From contig QZIR01000062.1 of NCBI GenBank assembly GCA_003604975.1, positions 62,001 to 126,000 of the forward strand: a DNA stretch of 64,000 nt, in the 5' to 3' direction. The notes beneath the pieces were generated by a model. It was not told where the DNA came from. It saw only the letters and a list, made by a program, of their open reading frames with translations, and ran no database searches. Below, piece after piece: positions 427 to 8,837 of this stretch (its first letter is position 1; every line of letters starts with the position of its first letter). The position numbers and the translations under genes were made by a program. This stretch comes from Desulforudis sp. (GTDB taxonomy: Bacteria; Bacillota; Desulfotomaculia; Desulfotomaculales; Desulforudaceae).

Positions 427-1026
427 TTATTTATAACCGGTGAAAATGGACTTAAGTTTCTTGAGGCTGTCGGTGAGGGCAAAATAGATATGCCCGGCGG
501 CCAGGGCGGAAATGGACACGCTTGCCAGGTAGTGCAGTTTGCGCAGGGGATTCAGGCCGCCCGCCAGGGTGGCCGGCTTCTGAAATCTCTTTGTAACGTA
601 CAGACCCAGCCCGGTTACGATCTGCACCGGGATGAGCAGGGCAAAGCTGGTATAGACGATTTTCTGACCGGGGTTGTATTTAGGAAATTTAGGCTTCTTA
701 CTGGTAAGAAAGAGTTGGTATTTTAAGAACTCGGGCATGCGCACTATATCTTTAAGGTCGGGAATGATCTCCCTGTAATTTTTTGCTGAATAAGCGTAGT
801 AGACCCGGGCGAGGTAGGAGGAGATAAGCACGTACTGGGCAATGAAATGGGTTTTCCGGGCAGAATCCATGTTCGTGAAGCCGTGGACACGGGATGGTCT
901 GGTGATATAAAACCCGCTCAGGATACCGGCCAGCACGGCGGGGGCGTAAGACCAGTGCAAAAGCCTCGTGGGCCAGGGATGCCGTAGTTTTTTCCCTTTT
1001 ATCAATAATGACAGTAAACTTTTCAC
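427..1026 (-). CDS. Cytochrome b subunit of NiFe hydrogenase (b561/HyaC-like)
   Basis: A 199-residue membrane protein, probably the di-haem cytochrome b that passes electrons from the adjacent NiFe hydrogenase to the quinone pool. Hydrophobic segments lie at about 22-42, 60-80, 122-145 and 163-185. Candidate haem-ligand histidines sit in the LLHW motif (His24), at His60, and at two positions in the last helix pair (about 165 and 179). The start is GTG behind GGAGGTTGT. It lies just downstream of the large subunit in the same direction, the usual order small-large-cytochrome b. Length is slightly under the usual 200-240. Family assignment rests on membrane pattern, histidines and context. Confidence 0.75.
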   Translation of the reverse strand: MKSLLSLLIKGKKLRHPWPTRLLHWSYAPAVLAGILSGFYITRPSRVHGFTNMDSARKTHFIAQYVLISSYLARVYYAYSAKNYREIIPDLKDIVRMPEFLKYQLFLTSKKPKFPKYNPGQKIVYTSFALLIPVQIVTGLGLYVTKRFQKPATLAGGLNPLRKLHYLASVSISALAAGHIYFALTDSLKKLKSIFTGYK

Positions 1027-1063: not shown

Positions 1064-2473
1064 TTAAGGTACGATAATCGTTTCCTTGACCGGCGTGCCC
1101 GGAACAATCAGGTGGACGGAGCATGAAGAGCATACGTCAAAGGCACGGACCACCCTGCCTATTTCCACCGGTTCATTCTCGTCTTCGATGGGTGTCCCGA
1201 TCAGGGCTTCCTCCACCGGTCCCAACTGGCCCGTATCGTCACGGGGCGAAAAGTTCCACGTGGTAGGGGTGATAATCTCATAGTGGGCGATCCTTCCTTT
1301 TTCGATCCGTAGCCAGTGCCCCAGCGGCCCCCGCATGGCCCCTGTCAAACCGGCTCCCTCCGCCTCCCGGGGTACATTAAAGGCGTTAAAGACGGGTGCG
1401 CCCGGCTGCAGTTCTTCCACCCAGCCCTCCATCGATTTCCCGATCATTTCTGCTTCCATGGCACGGGCAACGATTCGGTCCATGGTAGAAATACCCTTCC
1501 GGTAGTCTCCCCTGATCCAGAGCCGGGCCAGGGGCCCCCCTTCCATCGGCTTTCCCCCATAACGGGGTGCTTTGGCCCAGGAATAGGCACCCTCTTTTTC
1601 CCGGTCGGGTTCGGTCCGTCCCCGGGACGGATGCCGGGGTTCACTGTTTCCGGTAAACCAGGAGTACTTTAGATGTTCTCTAATAGCCGAGCTGTCTAGC
1701 TTTTGCGGGTGGCCATCGATTATGACACCTCCCGGGAAAGATCTTTCATTATCATCCTCACTACGCGGGAAGAGGCCGAATTCGAGCAGGTTGGGCGCCC
1801 GGCAGCCGATTTCGTAGTAGTCCGGGTAGGCCTCCGCCAGGGTTAATGTGTCGGGAACCATTATGTTTTTGATGAAATCGATAATCTTCCTTAACTTTGA
1901 GCCAAAATCCATTAGGATATCGGCTGCTGGGGATACGGTGCTTCCCCCGGCCAGTAGGCCGTGATTATGCGGGGCCTTACCTCCCAGCAGGGTCAACAGC
2001 TTGTGGGTCAGCCGGCTGATTTCCACGGCCTGAAAGTAGTGTTCAACCATAGCCTCGTTCACTTTTCCATGTAAACGGTAGCCTTTTGTATAACCGGGGA
2101 TGAAGGGTCGCTGGTTCGGCCCCCGGACGTAATCCAGCAGGCTGTACAGGTAGAAGTGACGGATGTGGCTTTGCAGGAAGTCGGCGCCCAGGATCAGGTT
2201 GCGCAACAGGTTGCCGTTGCGGGGAGGCCGTACGCCGGCAGCATCCTCGAGGGCGAAAGAGGCCGCCGTGCCGTGAGCCGCGGAACATATCCCGCAGATC
2301 CGCTCGGTCAGGTAGCTGGCGTCCCGGGGATCCCTGCCCCGCAGGATTAGCTCGAAGCCCCGAAAAAAGATGCCGCTGCAGCGGGCATCTACCACTCTTT
2401 TGTCTTCTACGGTAACCTCTACGGAACTGGAGTTGTTGGCCCGGGTAAGCGGGCCAACGATGATTTTCTTCAA
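1064..2473 (-). CDS. NiFe hydrogenase large subunit
   Basis: Catalytic subunit (469 aa) of a group 1-like uptake NiFe hydrogenase, which oxidises H2 at a Ni-Fe site. The N-terminal nickel motif RICGIC with a following His (Cys60, Cys63, His67) and the C-terminal motif DVCSSCSVH (Cys448, Cys451, His454) supply the four cysteine ligands. The usual Pro of the DPC motif is Val here. Fifteen residues follow His454, as expected for the peptide removed by a maturation protease. The start is TTG, with AAAGGATG about 8 bases upstream. It follows the small subunit closely and precedes cytochrome b. The protein is shorter than many group 1 large subunits (530-600 aa). Confidence 0.93.
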   Translation of the reverse strand: MKKIIVGPLTRANNSSSVEVTVEDKRVVDARCSGIFFRGFELILRGRDPRDASYLTERICGICSAAHGTAASFALEDAAGVRPPRNGNLLRNLILGADFLQSHIRHFYLYSLLDYVRGPNQRPFIPGYTKGYRLHGKVNEAMVEHYFQAVEISRLTHKLLTLLGGKAPHNHGLLAGGSTVSPAADILMDFGSKLRKIIDFIKNIMVPDTLTLAEAYPDYYEIGCRAPNLLEFGLFPRSEDDNERSFPGGVIIDGHPQKLDSSAIREHLKYSWFTGNSEPRHPSRGRTEPDREKEGAYSWAKAPRYGGKPMEGGPLARLWIRGDYRKGISTMDRIVARAMEAEMIGKSMEGWVEELQPGAPVFNAFNVPREAEGAGLTGAMRGPLGHWLRIEKGRIAHYEIITPTTWNFSPRDDTGQLGPVEEALIGTPIEDENEPVEIGRVVRAFDVCSSCSVHLIVPGTPVKETIIVP

Positions 2474-2502: not shown

Positions 2503-3552
2503 TTACCGTAGTTTTTTCAACAATTTCTGTAACATGCCGTTACCGGAGAAGCCTTTCTTTAGGGTGTGGGGCAGCCGGTTGGTGACGATGCTGCCGATCA
2601 TGTGCCCGCTAATGCCCAAGGCCGTAATAACGCCGGTTATGGTCCCGATCCGGTCGGCGGTCGTTCGAATGCCTGGCAGTTTCACGTCCGGCAGGTGCTC
2701 GAAGAAGGGCATGTCGCCGTCGGGAAATTCCGGACTGACACAGCCGATGCAGGGGGTGTTGGCCTTCACCGGCCAGCTCAGGTGCTCGCTGTTCCACTGG
2801 CGGTAAGGGCAGTCGGCAAAGGTCACCGGTCCCTTGCACCCGATCTTGTACATGCACCAGGGGTCACCCGGCTTTTTGGCAAAAATACTGTTGTCGAAAT
2901 AGTGGCGTCGCTGGCAGAGGTTGTGGATGGTTTCGCCGTAGAACAGTTTGGGCCGGTTCAAATCATCCAGCTCCGGCTCTCCGTACCGGATCAGGTGTGC
3001 CAGCGTCCCCATCAGCCAGTCAGGGAGAACGGGACAACCGGGTACGTTGATGACCCGTCTCTCTAGGACGGCCTGGACAGATTTGGAATCAGAGGGGTTG
3101 GGCGCGGCGGCGTAAGGACCCCCGAACGCCGCGCAGGTACCTGCGGCTACCACGTACCGGGCGCTGGCACCCAGCTCCCGTACCGCCTGCAGGGCCGTCA
3201 GCGGCTCTCCGTTTCTTCTCCCGATAACGCAGTACAACCCGTTGGACCGGGTCGGGATTGTTCCTTCAACCACCAGGATGTACTCACCGGGGAGCTCGGC
3301 CATGGTTTCATCCAAAATCCCGGTAGCCATGTCCCCCTCGGCCGTCCCCAGCAGGTAATTGTAGCGGAAATCGATCAGGTCGGTAAGCAAGCTCCGGTAA
3401 CCCGGGTCGAGGGAATTCAGCAAGGAAAGCATATCACCTGCGCAGGTGTTGGTCCCCAGCCAGATTACGGGAGGTCTGCTTTCTCCGGCGCGGGGCTTAA
3501 GCAGCCGGGGAATCAGCTGTTCAAGTAGTTTATGGTTGGTCTTACCTTGCAT
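2503..3552 (-). CDS. NiFe hydrogenase small subunit with Asp in proximal cluster motif
   Basis: Electron-transfer subunit carrying three iron-sulfur clusters. I prefer ATG at 3552 (349 aa) because GGGGTGGAG lies 6-7 bases upstream; GTG at 3564 would add four residues. Proximal-cluster positions are Cys37, then Asp40 where the usual CxxC second cysteine stands, Cys140 (GTCAAFGG) and Cys173 (VPGCP). Distal-cluster ligands are the HxxC of IHNLC and two cysteines in WCMYKIGC. Medial-cluster cysteines lie in ADCPY and PCIGC. No twin-arginine signal is visible at the N-terminus, so export is doubtful. Asp in this position is known from actinobacterial-type (group 1h) enzymes, so the enzyme may belong near that group. 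Confidence 0.92.
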   Translation of the reverse strand: MQGKTNHKLLEQLIPRLLKPRAGESRPPVIWLGTNTCAGDMLSLLNSLDPGYRSLLTDLIDFRYNYLLGTAEGDMATGILDETMAELPGEYILVVEGTIPTRSNGLYCVIGRRNGEPLTALQAVRELGASARYVVAAGTCAAFGGPYAAAPNPSDSKSVQAVLERRVINVPGCPVLPDWLMGTLAHLIRYGEPELDDLNRPKLFYGETIHNLCQRRHYFDNSIFAKKPGDPWCMYKIGCKGPVTFADCPYRQWNSEHLSWPVKANTPCIGCVSPEFPDGDMPFFEHLPDVKLPGIRTTADRIGTITGVITALGISGHMIGSIVTNRLPHTLKKGFSGNGMLQKLLKKLR

Positions 3553-3617
3553 CTTATTCTCCACCCCGCGCCTATTCTGTGACGCAGCCTTTTATACCCG
3601 CTTTACAGGTATTGATG

Positions 3618-3905
3618 TCAGCGTCCTTCCCGGTCCACTATCTCCTTGTCCCGTTTGTCGTCCCGCTCCAGCATCTTAACGAGCATCGAGGTCAGCCCTC
3701 TTCTCTCCTCTTCGGTGCCCTCCAGCCACAATTCCTGAAGCAGGCGCTGCTCCCGGTTACCTGAGTCGATGTGGCCGGCCAAAAACCCTCCCATACGGTA
3801 GGACATGCCCTTGATCCTGTCTTCGGACAGCCCTATGAACTCCCCGATGTTAATTCCCGTCCTCAGCATCTTTGTCCATTGCTCCCACGTTACATCTGTT
3901 TCCAT
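3618..3905 (-). CDS. DUF3243 family protein
   Basis: Small soluble 95-residue protein that resembles the DUF3243 family of Firmicutes (Bacillus YmfJ type), whose role is unknown. The middle carries the pattern of a helix with GLSED, a Gly-rich turn with GGFLAGHID, and the ELW motif followed by acidic residues. The C-terminal 20 residues are charged (RDDKRDKE). GGAGGTGG lies 6 bases before the ATG. It is the first gene of the minus-strand run and lies about 65 bases upstream of the hydrogenase small subunit, so it may share its transcript. Nothing in the sequence links it functionally to hydrogenase. Confidence 0.65.
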   Translation of the reverse strand: METDVTWEQWTKMLRTGINIGEFIGLSEDRIKGMSYRMGGFLAGHIDSGNREQRLLQELWLEGTEEERRGLTSMLVKMLERDDKRDKEIVDREGR

Positions 3906-4274: not shown

Positions 4275-5204
4275 ATGATCCTCAAGGTTATTCGCCCGAT
4301 GGAACCCGTTCCGGTGGACGAGCCTTTTGACGATCCGGCCTGGATCCACCAGATAAAGTGGGACGGGATCCGCCTGCTGGCCTATGCTGAGGGAAGCGGA
4401 GTGCGCCTCTACACGCGTCGTGGGCAGGATCGCACTGAATCCTATCCCGAACTGGCGGGGGCCCGGCTGGCAAAGGCGGAGACGGTGGTTCTGGACGGTG
4501 AAGTGGTGGCCATTGATTCAAAGGGGCGGCCGAGCTTCCAGCGCATAATGCGCAGGCACATGCGGGCCCGGCACCGTTCAACCGGAGCGGCGGAGATTTC
4601 GATCGACTACGTGGTATTCGATCTACTATATCTGGACGGGCAGTGGCTGTTTGAGGTTCCACTGTTGGAACGCCAGGCGCTGCTTCAGGATCGCGTCAAC
4701 TGGGACACCGGCGTTCACCCCTGTGACAACCACACTTCGGGGAAAGAACTTTTCCACGCCACCGGGCAGCTTGGTCTGGAAGGTATTGTGTCTAAGGAGA
4801 GAAACGGTCGTTATCACCCCGACCGTAAACACCCCACCTGGCGGAAGATCAAGCACTTTCAGCAACTGGACGCCGTGGTCATCGGGGTTGTGCTTAAGCA
4901 GGGACGGGCTAACGCCCTGCTAACCGCAGCCTACCTGGAGGATGAACTAACCTACATCGGCCGGGTGGCCACGGGGCTTTCAATGGAGGAACTGGGACTG
5001 TTCACCGATCTTGCCGCTCGTTCCGAGGCGCCAAGACCGTTGTTATTGAACGAAGGATACGCACGGGAGCGGAACATCCGCTGGCTCGACGTCCGACCTG
5101 TGGTCCGTGTCCGCTTTATGGGTTGGACCGAGCAGGGACTGCTCAGGGCGCCGGTGGTAGTCGGTTTCTCGATTCGGCCCGAAAAGGAATGCGTGATGGA
5201 ATAA
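4275..5204 (+). CDS. ligD: ATP-dependent DNA ligase, LigD-type ligase domain
   Basis: A 309-residue stand-alone ATP-dependent ligase that seals breaks in non-homologous end joining. The nucleotidyl-transferase domain begins at once, with catalytic Lys28 in QIKWDGIR (motif I, KxDG). Further motifs are the DGEVVAID block near residue 75, DYVVFDLLYLDG near 115, GIVSKER near 170 and PTWRKIK near 190. The last 100 residues form the OB-fold, ending with RVRFMGWTEQGLLRAP. Polymerase and phosphoesterase domains, fused in classical LigD, are absent; the polymerase is a separate gene 1.5 kb on. The start is ATG behind GGTGGTGA. The gene symbol denotes the family only. Confidence 0.9.
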   Translation: MILKVIRPMEPVPVDEPFDDPAWIHQIKWDGIRLLAYAEGSGVRLYTRRGQDRTESYPELAGARLAKAETVVLDGEVVAIDSKGRPSFQRIMRRHMRARHRSTGAAEISIDYVVFDLLYLDGQWLFEVPLLERQALLQDRVNWDTGVHPCDNHTSGKELFHATGQLGLEGIVSKERNGRYHPDRKHPTWRKIKHFQQLDAVVIGVVLKQGRANALLTAAYLEDELTYIGRVATGLSMEELGLFTDLAARSEAPRPLLLNEGYARERNIRWLDVRPVVRVRFMGWTEQGLLRAPVVVGFSIRPEKECVME

Positions 5205-6704: not shown

Positions 6705-7679
6705 TTGTCTACGACTGTTGACGTTGACGGTCGTGAAGTCAAGCTGACCAACCTTGATAAGGTTTTGTGGCCGGAAGGGATTACTAAGGCGGATCTGGTT
6801 GCTTATTACCACCAGGTGGCGCCTTATGCGCTTCCCTACCTGGTGGGACGGCCGGCGGTCATGAGCCGGTACCCGGACGGTATCGACGGGGAGTACTTTT
6901 ACCAGAAAGACTGTCCGTCTTATGTCCCGGATTGGATCAGGACCGTCGCGGTAAGGCACGATGAGGGGCGCCGGGTGGTACACTATATTGTGCACCAGGA
7001 CCGGGCCACGCTGGTATGGTTGGCGAACCAGGCGGCGATCGAACTCCACGCCTGGCTTTCCCGGGTCGACCATCTCAAGCACCCGGATATTGGGGTCATC
7101 GACCTCGATCCGGCCGAGGGATCTACTTTTCAGCAGGTTGTGACCGTGGCTCTACTGGTGCAGGAAGCCTTGACGGAGTTTGAGATCACTGGTTTCCCAA
7201 AGACCTCGGGTGCGACCGGGCTCCACATTTACATCCCGCTGGAACCCGTATCCCCGTTTTCAGAGGTGACCCGGGCCTTAAAGACGCTGGCCGAAATGAT
7301 CACGGCGGTCTGTCCTTTCGCGACCATCGAGCGGGTGGTGGCCAAACGGACGGGAAAGGTGTACATTGATTACCTGCAAAACACGTTCGGAAAGACGATG
7401 GCCTCGGCCTACAGCGTCCGTCCCCGCCCCGGCGCTCCCGTGTCGATGCCATTGAAATGGCCGGATGTAGAGCGGGGGGGCCTAAACCCGGATGAATTCA
7501 ACATCTACACTGTTTTACCGCTACTTCGAGAGCAGGGAGATGCCTTCCGGGGATTCTTCGACCGCCGCTACCGGCTTAACGGGCTGTTGGAGGCCAAGCC
7601 CTTGCTAGAAAATATTCAACATTGGCAGGAAATGTCTGGTTCCGTCCCGAAGAATGGGTCGATCTACCAAGAACAATAA
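6705..7679 (+). CDS. LigD-type NHEJ polymerase/primase domain protein
   Basis: A 324-residue stand-alone polymerase of the archaeo-eukaryotic primase superfamily, as found in LigD. It adds nucleotides at broken ends during non-homologous end joining. Catalytic acidic pair: VIDLDP (Asp133, Asp135). The SGATGLHIYIPL motif follows near residue 170, and the third metal ligand lies in KVYIDYLQN near 225. The N-terminal LTNLDKVLWPEGITKADL is diagnostic for this family. The start is TTG behind GGAGGTGAGG. With the separate ligase 1.5 kb upstream it makes a split LigD. No Ku gene is seen in the window. dprA follows after about 50 bases. Confidence 0.9.
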   Translation: MSTTVDVDGREVKLTNLDKVLWPEGITKADLVAYYHQVAPYALPYLVGRPAVMSRYPDGIDGEYFYQKDCPSYVPDWIRTVAVRHDEGRRVVHYIVHQDRATLVWLANQAAIELHAWLSRVDHLKHPDIGVIDLDPAEGSTFQQVVTVALLVQEALTEFEITGFPKTSGATGLHIYIPLEPVSPFSEVTRALKTLAEMITAVCPFATIERVVAKRTGKVYIDYLQNTFGKTMASAYSVRPRPGAPVSMPLKWPDVERGGLNPDEFNIYTVLPLLREQGDAFRGFFDRRYRLNGLLEAKPLLENIQHWQEMSGSVPKNGSIYQEQ

Positions 7680-7727: not shown

Positions 7728-8837
7728 GTGAGCTTGGAGCATTTGTTTTGGCTCGCATGGGCTAGTGTATTGCCGGCCGGGGGACAGCAGATTATCGACA
7801 TTGTGGAACACTTTGGTTCAGCCCACAAAGCCTGGTCGAACGGTGAGCGGGCGCTTGCCTTCCTTTGTGAGAAGGCTCCTTTGCGGGGACAGGCCCGGCG
7901 TTCACTGCCGGAGCTCACCACACGCTTCAAGGCCACGGACCCTGTCCGGGAGGAAGCGCTTCTAAAGCAGGCGGGCGCTGGTTACCTGACTTGGACGGAC
8001 GACCGGTACCCTGAACCTTTACGGCATATTTTCAATCCTCCCGCCGTACTCTACTATCTAGGTGAGATCAAGCCTGAGGACAAGCTGGCCGTAGCCTTGG
8101 TCGGCTCTCGCCGGGCTACCTACTACGGACGCGATGTGGCCCAAAAGCTGGGCCGTGACCTTGCAGCCGCCGGGTTGACAGTGGTTAGCGGGATGGCCAG
8201 GGGTATTGACACCGCGGCACACCGCGGTGCGCTTGAGGCCGGAGGCAGGACCGTTGCCGTACTCGGCTCAGGTTTAGATGTGGTCTATCCGCGGGAAAAT
8301 ATTAAGTTGATGCGTGAGATTGCCGGTTCGGGAGCCGTGGTCACGGAGTTTCCGCTGGGTGCGGCGCCCGAGGCGTGGCACTTCCCGGTGCGGAACCGGA
8401 TTATCAGTGGCATCTCACGGGGAGTGGTGGTCGTCGAGGCCGCCGAGCGTAGCGGGGCGTTGATTACGGCGGAACTTGCGCTTGAACAGGGCAAGGACGT
8501 AATGGCTGTTCCGGGCAACATCAGCAGTCCGGTCAGTCGCGGTCCCAACCGGTTAATCAAACAAGGCGCCCGGCTGGTGGACGACGCGGAGGACATCCTT
8601 GATGAAATTGGGCTCACGCGCCTGTTTGACGCTCAGGACGGCGGGTCCGGACCGGGGATAAAGCTTGACCCCGACGAGGAACGTGTGCTACAACTCATTT
8701 CAGTAGAACCGCTGGCGGTCGACCTGATCATTAGGGATTCGGGACTGCCGGCCGAACGGGTGGCCTCAGTGCTGGCCTTTCTGGAAGTGAAAGGACTGGC
8801 CCGGCGTTTACCTGCCGGCCTCTACTTAAAAAGCTAG
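7728..8837 (+). CDS. dprA: DNA-processing protein DprA
   Basis: DprA (369 aa) binds incoming single-stranded DNA and loads RecA during natural transformation. It is also kept in many bacteria not known to be competent. The Rossmann-like core has GSRRATYYG near residue 125, SGMARGIDTAAHRGAL near 155, AVLGSGLDVVYP near 180 and FPVRNRIISG near 220. A C-terminal winged helix (about residues 305-365) follows the core. The start is GTG with GGGGGAAGGG upstream. It leads a plus-strand run through topA, trmFO and xerC with gaps of at most 17 bases or overlaps, a common Firmicutes order. Confidence 0.95.
   Translation: MSLEHLFWLAWASVLPAGGQQIIDIVEHFGSAHKAWSNGERALAFLCEKAPLRGQARRSLPELTTRFKATDPVREEALLKQAGAGYLTWTDDRYPEPLRHIFNPPAVLYYLGEIKPEDKLAVALVGSRRATYYGRDVAQKLGRDLAAAGLTVVSGMARGIDTAAHRGALEAGGRTVAVLGSGLDVVYPRENIKLMREIAGSGAVVTEFPLGAAPEAWHFPVRNRIISGISRGVVVVEAAERSGALITAELALEQGKDVMAVPGNISSPVSRGPNRLIKQGARLVDDAEDILDEIGLTRLFDAQDGGSGPGIKLDPDEERVLQLISVEPLAVDLIIRDSGLPAERVASVLAFLEVKGLARRLPAGLYLKS

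Follow-up and report, generated by a model that had tools for sequence, protein, structure and literature searches.

The 64,000-nucleotide stretch of Desulforudis DNA analyzed here (the window) encodes what is probably a functional [NiFe]-hydrogenase linked to quinone, from a distinct group-1-like lineage; in it, the proximal iron-sulfur cluster would be held by three cysteines (C41, C144, and C177) together with the carboxylate of an aspartate, D44. The data directly show the sequence pattern and that it is conserved within a single clade under purifying selection, that the NiFe ligands are all in place, and that the genes for small subunit, large subunit, and cytochrome b form an operon. The features concerned are the following.

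427..1026, minus strand: b-type cytochrome subunit (PF01292, 6.8e-32)
1064..2473, minus strand: [NiFe]-hydrogenase large subunit, 469 amino acids, with a C-terminal extension past H454 (PF00374, 1.5e-114)
1334..1336, minus strand: M380, occupying the site of the EAPRG Pro next to the active-site Arg (motif comparison)
1961..1963, minus strand: H171, a family-specific His two residues past a cluster-contacting His (comparison with relatives)
2435..2437, minus strand: N13, where the proton-gate Glu of TRIEGH would be (motif comparison)
2503..3564, minus strand: [NiFe]-hydrogenase small subunit, 353 amino acids, without a Tat signal (TIGR00391, PF14720, PF01058)
2584..2676, minus strand: C-terminal helix of the small subunit, residues about 297-327, with conserved H321, a likely membrane anchor by cytochrome b (hydrophobicity)
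3034..3036, minus strand: C177 codon, proximal ligand kept (sequence)
3133..3135, minus strand: C144 codon, proximal ligand kept (sequence)
3433..3444, minus strand: CxGD motif C41-A-G-D44 (codons TGC GCA GGT GAT, read directly)
3433-3435, minus strand: D44 codon, where the proximal cluster would have its fourth Cys ligand

The initial annotation had described the second Cys of the CxxC motif as an Asp encoded by GAT, which the codons at 3444-3433 confirm, and had reported the other proximal, distal, and medial ligands as kept. These are indeed all present: C144 and C177 of the proximal cluster, H214, C217, C237, and C243 of the distal cluster, and C252, C272, and C275, with Pro265, of the medial cluster. 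Residues are numbered here from the GTG at 3564; the Asp40, Cys140, and Cys173 of the initial annotation follow from an in-frame ATG four codons downstream. When the small subunit is aligned with the [NiFeSe] structures 1cc1 and 4kl8, D44 falls in the column of the fourth Cys ligand, with no gap across the motif. The small subunit scores 253 bits against TIGR00391 (cut-off, 179.5). An AlphaFold model of this subunit was set aside as too poor (mean pLDDT of 57.7, below 50 in the motif region), and a PADLOC run returned no match.

The large subunit retains all four NiFe cysteines (C60, C63, C448, and C451), and its D114 and active-site Arg, R381, are conserved. With these cysteines and with TIGR00391 and PF00374 matches above their cut-offs, the enzyme is a group 1 [NiFe]-hydrogenase in the broad sense. 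Its L1 motif reads TERICGICSAAH (RICGICSAAH in the form compared with group 1h below) and its L2 motif AFDVCSSCSVH. In the enzyme of the window and those closest to it, the Pro of the C-terminal DPCxxC motif is replaced by Val, Ile, or Leu (FDVC; window about 1121-1138, minus strand), a change that is limited to this sub-clade and shared by L018, L019, L021, L026, L040, and L115-L119. The operon runs from small subunit to large subunit, b-type cytochrome (TIGR02125, 111.4 bits, under the cut-off of 121.5), and a PpiC-like gene, and three maturation protease genes occur in the genome. Directly upstream of the small subunit (window 3618-3905, minus strand) lies a gene for a DUF3243 protein (PF11588, 6e-24), for which no association with hydrogenase was found at other loci. 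The operon is also flanked by NHEJ-looking genes (window 4275-5204 and 6705-7679; L009:8140-8979), which, named from their sequence only, may encode LigD-type ATP-dependent DNA ligase/polymerase proteins and a Ku-like protein.

Relatives were collected by one scan of genome contigs (15 loci) and by searching 113 genomes from the same class and 398 from the same phylum. The resulting 144 distinct small subunits comprise a large C-x-G-[D/N/E] set (with one C-x-G-G), an 'ETNDSGDNN' set, and a remainder with C-x-G-C. At the position of D44, the relatives carry GAC (27), GAT (24), Asn (17), Glu (2), or Gly (1). Cys never occurs at this position in the family clade, which spans many Bacillota families and includes Desulfoscipio geothermicus, Desulfotruncus arcticus, D. 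alcoholivorax, and a Thermincola ferriacetica metagenome-assembled genome. Since Asn, Glu, and Gly stand beside Asp, the conserved trait is the absence of the thiolate. Both subunits show a dN/dS of about 0.1-0.2 (NG86, computed with close relatives whose dS is moderate or not saturated), and this value, the clade-wide conservation, and the use of both Asp codons rule out sequencing error or decay. A cytochrome b gene neighbors 28 of 32 CxG[D/N/E/G] loci, and a maturation protease gene 14 of the 32.

Unrooted trees were built from both subunits concatenated, with the motif columns excluded; they represent the HydDB subgroups only in part and leave out several group 1 and 2 subgroups. The non-Cys sequences group together in them, except for group 1h and two plasmid-borne enzymes. 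Support for the family clade is 94 without its basal pair, L138 and L142 (109 rows), 99/100 with the pair (49 rows), and 100/97.7 with the pair under a simpler model (32 rows). The placement of the pair depends on sampling, as it sided with the C-x-G-C enzymes in a 110-row quick tree. The initial annotation had named a placement among Cys-keeping enzymes as counting against its reading; the window enzyme belongs instead to a clade without Cys at the position. Full-text literature searches found no paper on this large and distinct group-1-like lineage of anaerobic Bacillota, which is apparently undescribed.

Group 1h, represented by HofKG of Cupriavidus necator (PDB 5AA5), has C-D-G-D (L113, L182, and L185), its Asp matching in position that of C-A-G-D in the window enzyme. 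The C. necator actinobacterial-type small subunit compared here, HofK, is identical to chain A of 5AA5. The likeness extends to the loss of the proton-gate Glu and the EAPRG Pro (TRIVG and EAVRG, as seen in the 5AA5 sequence) and to the absence of a Tat signal. However, the group 1h large subunit has 603 amino acids, in contrast to 469 in the window, and its L1 motif reads RICGICGDNH instead of RICGICSAAH. The published group 1h motifs (PMC10080006), TSRICGICGDNH for L1 and SFDPCLPCGVH for L2, are replaced in the window enzyme by TERICGICSAAH and AFDVCSSCSVH. The neighborhoods differ as well, with NifU-like, DUF5947, and DUF6084 genes downstream in group 1h (same three loci) and cytochrome b and protease genes in the family. 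Finally, the group 1h references, taken from C. necator, Mycobacterium, and Streptomyces, group separately as a clade with a support of 100/100, and the branch leading to them exceeds two changes per column. Separate clades (99/100 versus 100/100), operon, active-site motifs, and subunit size rule out membership in group 1h. The likeness to group 1h drawn in the initial annotation therefore does not extend to membership, the enzyme lying in a separate clade and the partner genes being missing from its operon. As the family and group 1h appear as sisters with a support of only 45/49 (32-row tree), their common Asp may reflect either shared origin or convergence. In plasmid records, the group 1h small subunits (L113:4963-6018, L182:3462-4517, and L185:3435-4523) are labeled 'hydrogenase expression protein HypE'; the mislabeled protein in the C. 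necator record is identical to the solved HofK.

The best solved-structure matches of both subunits are [NiFeSe] and related C-x-G-C hydrogenases (1cc1 and 4kl8), which have a similarly short large subunit. The C-x-G-C relatives (e.g., L010 and L083) differ in keeping C-x-G-C, TRIEGH, and EAPRG; most have a Tat signal and many a fourth medial Cys. A [NiFeSe]-hydrogenase was ruled out, as the window large-subunit gene contains no in-frame TGA and scores 539.8 against 600 for NF033181 and 501.3 against 780 for NF045518. Assignment to the Tat-exported membrane-bound uptake hydrogenases was rejected because the small subunit has no twin-arginine signal. The substitution as such is already known: Asp occurs naturally at the second proximal position in Geobacter metalloreducens and Asn in Nostoc punctiforme, and the C81D and C81N variants of the Alteromonas enzyme, altered at the position of D44, are active (PMC4070099). 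Plasmid-borne enzymes of Sulfobacillus acidophilus and Sulfurimonas paralvinellae (L114 and L183) likewise have Asn for the fourth proximal Cys (CDGN and CAGN) and a cytochrome b gene. However, they fall on the C-x-G-C side of the tree, keep Tat signal, Glu, and Pro, and lack H171; their Cys loss is of independent origin. What appears new, in the literature searched, is the clade-wide fixation, the linked loss of Glu, and a lineage without either CxxC Cys.

In the large subunits of the family, TRIEGH has become TRAN, TRIN, TRIH, TRLS, and others, and EAPRG mostly AMRG. The initial annotation had placed the Asp correctly and overlooked these linked changes. The TRIEGH Glu is regarded as the proton gate of canonical enzymes (PMC11212049, citing Dementin 2004) and is described as essential in work which that paper cites; its loss could mean low or no activity. 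Among 109 tree rows, 33 keep both Cys and Glu, 70 have lost both, and 5 have lost Cys alone, compared to none with loss of Glu alone (one row undetermined). By parsimony, three changes per trait suffice, leaving two to three independent comparisons, with which the association cannot reach significance. The basal pair combines C-x-G-N with TRVEGH, its Glu still there, and the Glu is gone in the remaining family. If the 49-row tree is right, this branching order suggests that Cys was lost before Glu. The Cys loss would then have been followed by loss of the Glu and of the Pro by the active-site Arg in the family; in group 1h, both occur together.

A sister lineage of 27 sequences (L055-L079, L112, and L156) has 'NDSGDNN' in place of C-x-G-C. 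Read without gaps, the motif has Ser and Asn at the two cysteine positions, and with one compensated gap it becomes D-S-G-D, so that no Cys is present either way. The sole other small-subunit Cys specific to this set lies in an N-terminal stretch, MQKEEFVELC, which, compared to RREFIKLC, looks like the vestige of a Tat peptide. All NiFe cysteines are intact wherever the whole large subunit is readable. With a dN/dS of about 0.1, these genes are under selection and are not relics. Their operons lack cytochrome b, the small-subunit C-terminal helix, and a Tat signal, and some have adjoining hyp genes; the enzymes are apparently soluble.

Other hydrogenases were met in the course of these searches. 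The other group-1-like hydrogenase of the genome, L010, reads TGA in frame where the second Cys of its N-terminal RICGxC motif would be encoded (RICGV-TGA-P; G000 contig C11, about 7992-7994, minus strand), and L017 and L088 have a similar N-terminal TGA. In L010, this codon is a candidate selenocysteine, outside the usual C-terminal site. The genome has a selD gene, which contains one TGA of its own (L186). By contrast, L081 and L089 have their in-frame stop at the C-terminal DPC motif, as expected for ordinary NiFeSe enzymes. Another gene resembling a large subunit, this one of a different hydrogenase type, lies at G000:C5:95937-96173 (L006 and L011) and likewise has a single in-frame TGA, within the N-terminal part of its PF00374 match. 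Lastly, L152, L159, and L166 combine a C-x-G-C, Tat-bearing small subunit with a large subunit without NiFe cysteines (RTSG.DF, no DPCxxC), which leaves these complexes devoid of a NiFe site; the small subunits of L154 and L163 are related to these operons.

No twin-arginine motif is present in the window small subunit or in-frame upstream of it, which rules out a hidden upstream Tat signal. The C-terminal helix stretch is the most hydrophobic part of the subunit and is helical in the low-confidence model, and H321 is conserved in relatives. Across the whole sub-clade of the window enzyme, the Tat signal is absent and the C-terminal helix, with H321, and cytochrome b are retained; other, more basal branches of the family retain a Tat signal (RREFI). 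The pairing of a missing Tat signal with a cytochrome b partner, called an odd mix in the initial annotation, is thus real, involves the C-terminal helix as well, and is a lineage trait. A quinone-linked hydrogenase facing the cytoplasm, an orientation read from the missing Tat signal alone, is the likeliest arrangement. A dsrA gene is present in the genome, and an oxidase search confined to the cytochrome bd type found none; the host is an anaerobe and probably a sulfate reducer. The genome also carries L010, a second C-x-G-C hydrogenase that is exported by Tat. With these features, the Asp enzyme is unlikely to serve aerobically, and the function in air that the initial annotation cites for group 1h does not transfer to it.

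We consider the enzyme functional because its dN/dS is low, its NiFe cysteines are kept, cytochrome b and protease genes neighbor the family loci, and C81D and C81N variants are active. In the reading that we favor, D44 would bind the fourth iron of a [4Fe-4S] proximal cluster, as reported for group 1h, and the catalytic dimer would face the cytoplasm, held at the membrane by the C-terminal helix and cytochrome b. Electrons would move from the NiFe site to the proximal cluster, on to the medial [3Fe-4S] and distal clusters, and finally to heme and quinone, the direction of flow not being readable from sequence. The non-thiolate ligand may alter the potential or the lability of the proximal cluster. 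Because Glu is lost in the window enzyme and in group 1h, protons would exit along a different path that bypasses the usual Glu gate. As relatives carry Asn, Glu, and Gly, the family does not depend on a carboxylate here, which counts against D44 as a ligand. This variation would also fit a three-cysteine [3Fe-4S] cluster of higher potential, in which D44 is merely a tolerated non-thiolate and the loss of the thiolate, not the gain of a carboxylate, is conserved; the three clusters of Mycobacterium Huc were assigned as [3Fe-4S] from their fourth coordinating residues (PMC10017518). We regard this as unlikely, as Asp is the commonest residue in the family (C-x-G-D in 41 of 69 clade rows, plus group 1h, in the tree set) and in group 1h, whose enzyme is described as catalytically active, the proximal [4Fe4S] cluster is reported to have a specific aspartate as a ligand (PMC7174314).

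Alternatively, the fourth ligand may have moved to the large subunit, with H171 binding the fourth iron or relaying protons in place of the lost Glu. The His two residues before this position contacts the proximal cluster in Desulfovibrio vulgaris and Huc (PMC10017518), and H171 occurs in 71 of 80 family members, including the basal pair that still has Glu, and in all 22 readable large subunits of the SGDNN lineage, compared to none of 35 C-x-G-C enzymes. However, nine family members do without it despite Asp, Asn, or Glu in the small subunit, and neither group 1h nor the two enzymes that acquired Asn independently have it, making such a relocation quite improbable. We give still less credit to a complex that is no longer a hydrogenase and whose scaffold serves another redox task. 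The losses of the TRIEGH Glu, the EAPRG Pro, and, in the window enzyme, the DPC Pro would suit it, and the NiFe-free relatives L152, L159, and L166 indicate that the scaffold can outlive catalysis. Yet the four NiFe cysteines, R381, and D114 are conserved, a maturation protease gene adjoins many relatives, and group 1h is described as active (PMC7174314) with the same losses of Glu and Pro. For the clade as a whole, we tentatively propose a rewired path from the NiFe site to the electron transfer chain: the fourth thiolate may have been lost first, then Glu and Pro, with a new His arising near the cluster. The NDSGDNN enzymes, with their full NiFe site, might then run on a two-cysteine proximal cluster, on ligands from elsewhere, or on none; we hold this scheme to be possible, if doubtful.

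The lineage offers a graded natural series in which the fourth thiolate is lost, then the Glu, and, in the sister lineage, both CxxC cysteines, with the NiFe site kept throughout. In the textbook [NiFe]-hydrogenase, the proton leaves by way of a Glu, and the electron goes to a proximal cluster with four Cys ligands. The series makes two questions testable: how protons are gated without the Glu, which group 1h also lacks, and how few ligands suffice for a working proximal cluster. Since the window's genome has dsrA and lacks cytochrome bd oxidase, Asp at the proximal position is a poor sign of oxygen tolerance or trace-H2 uptake.
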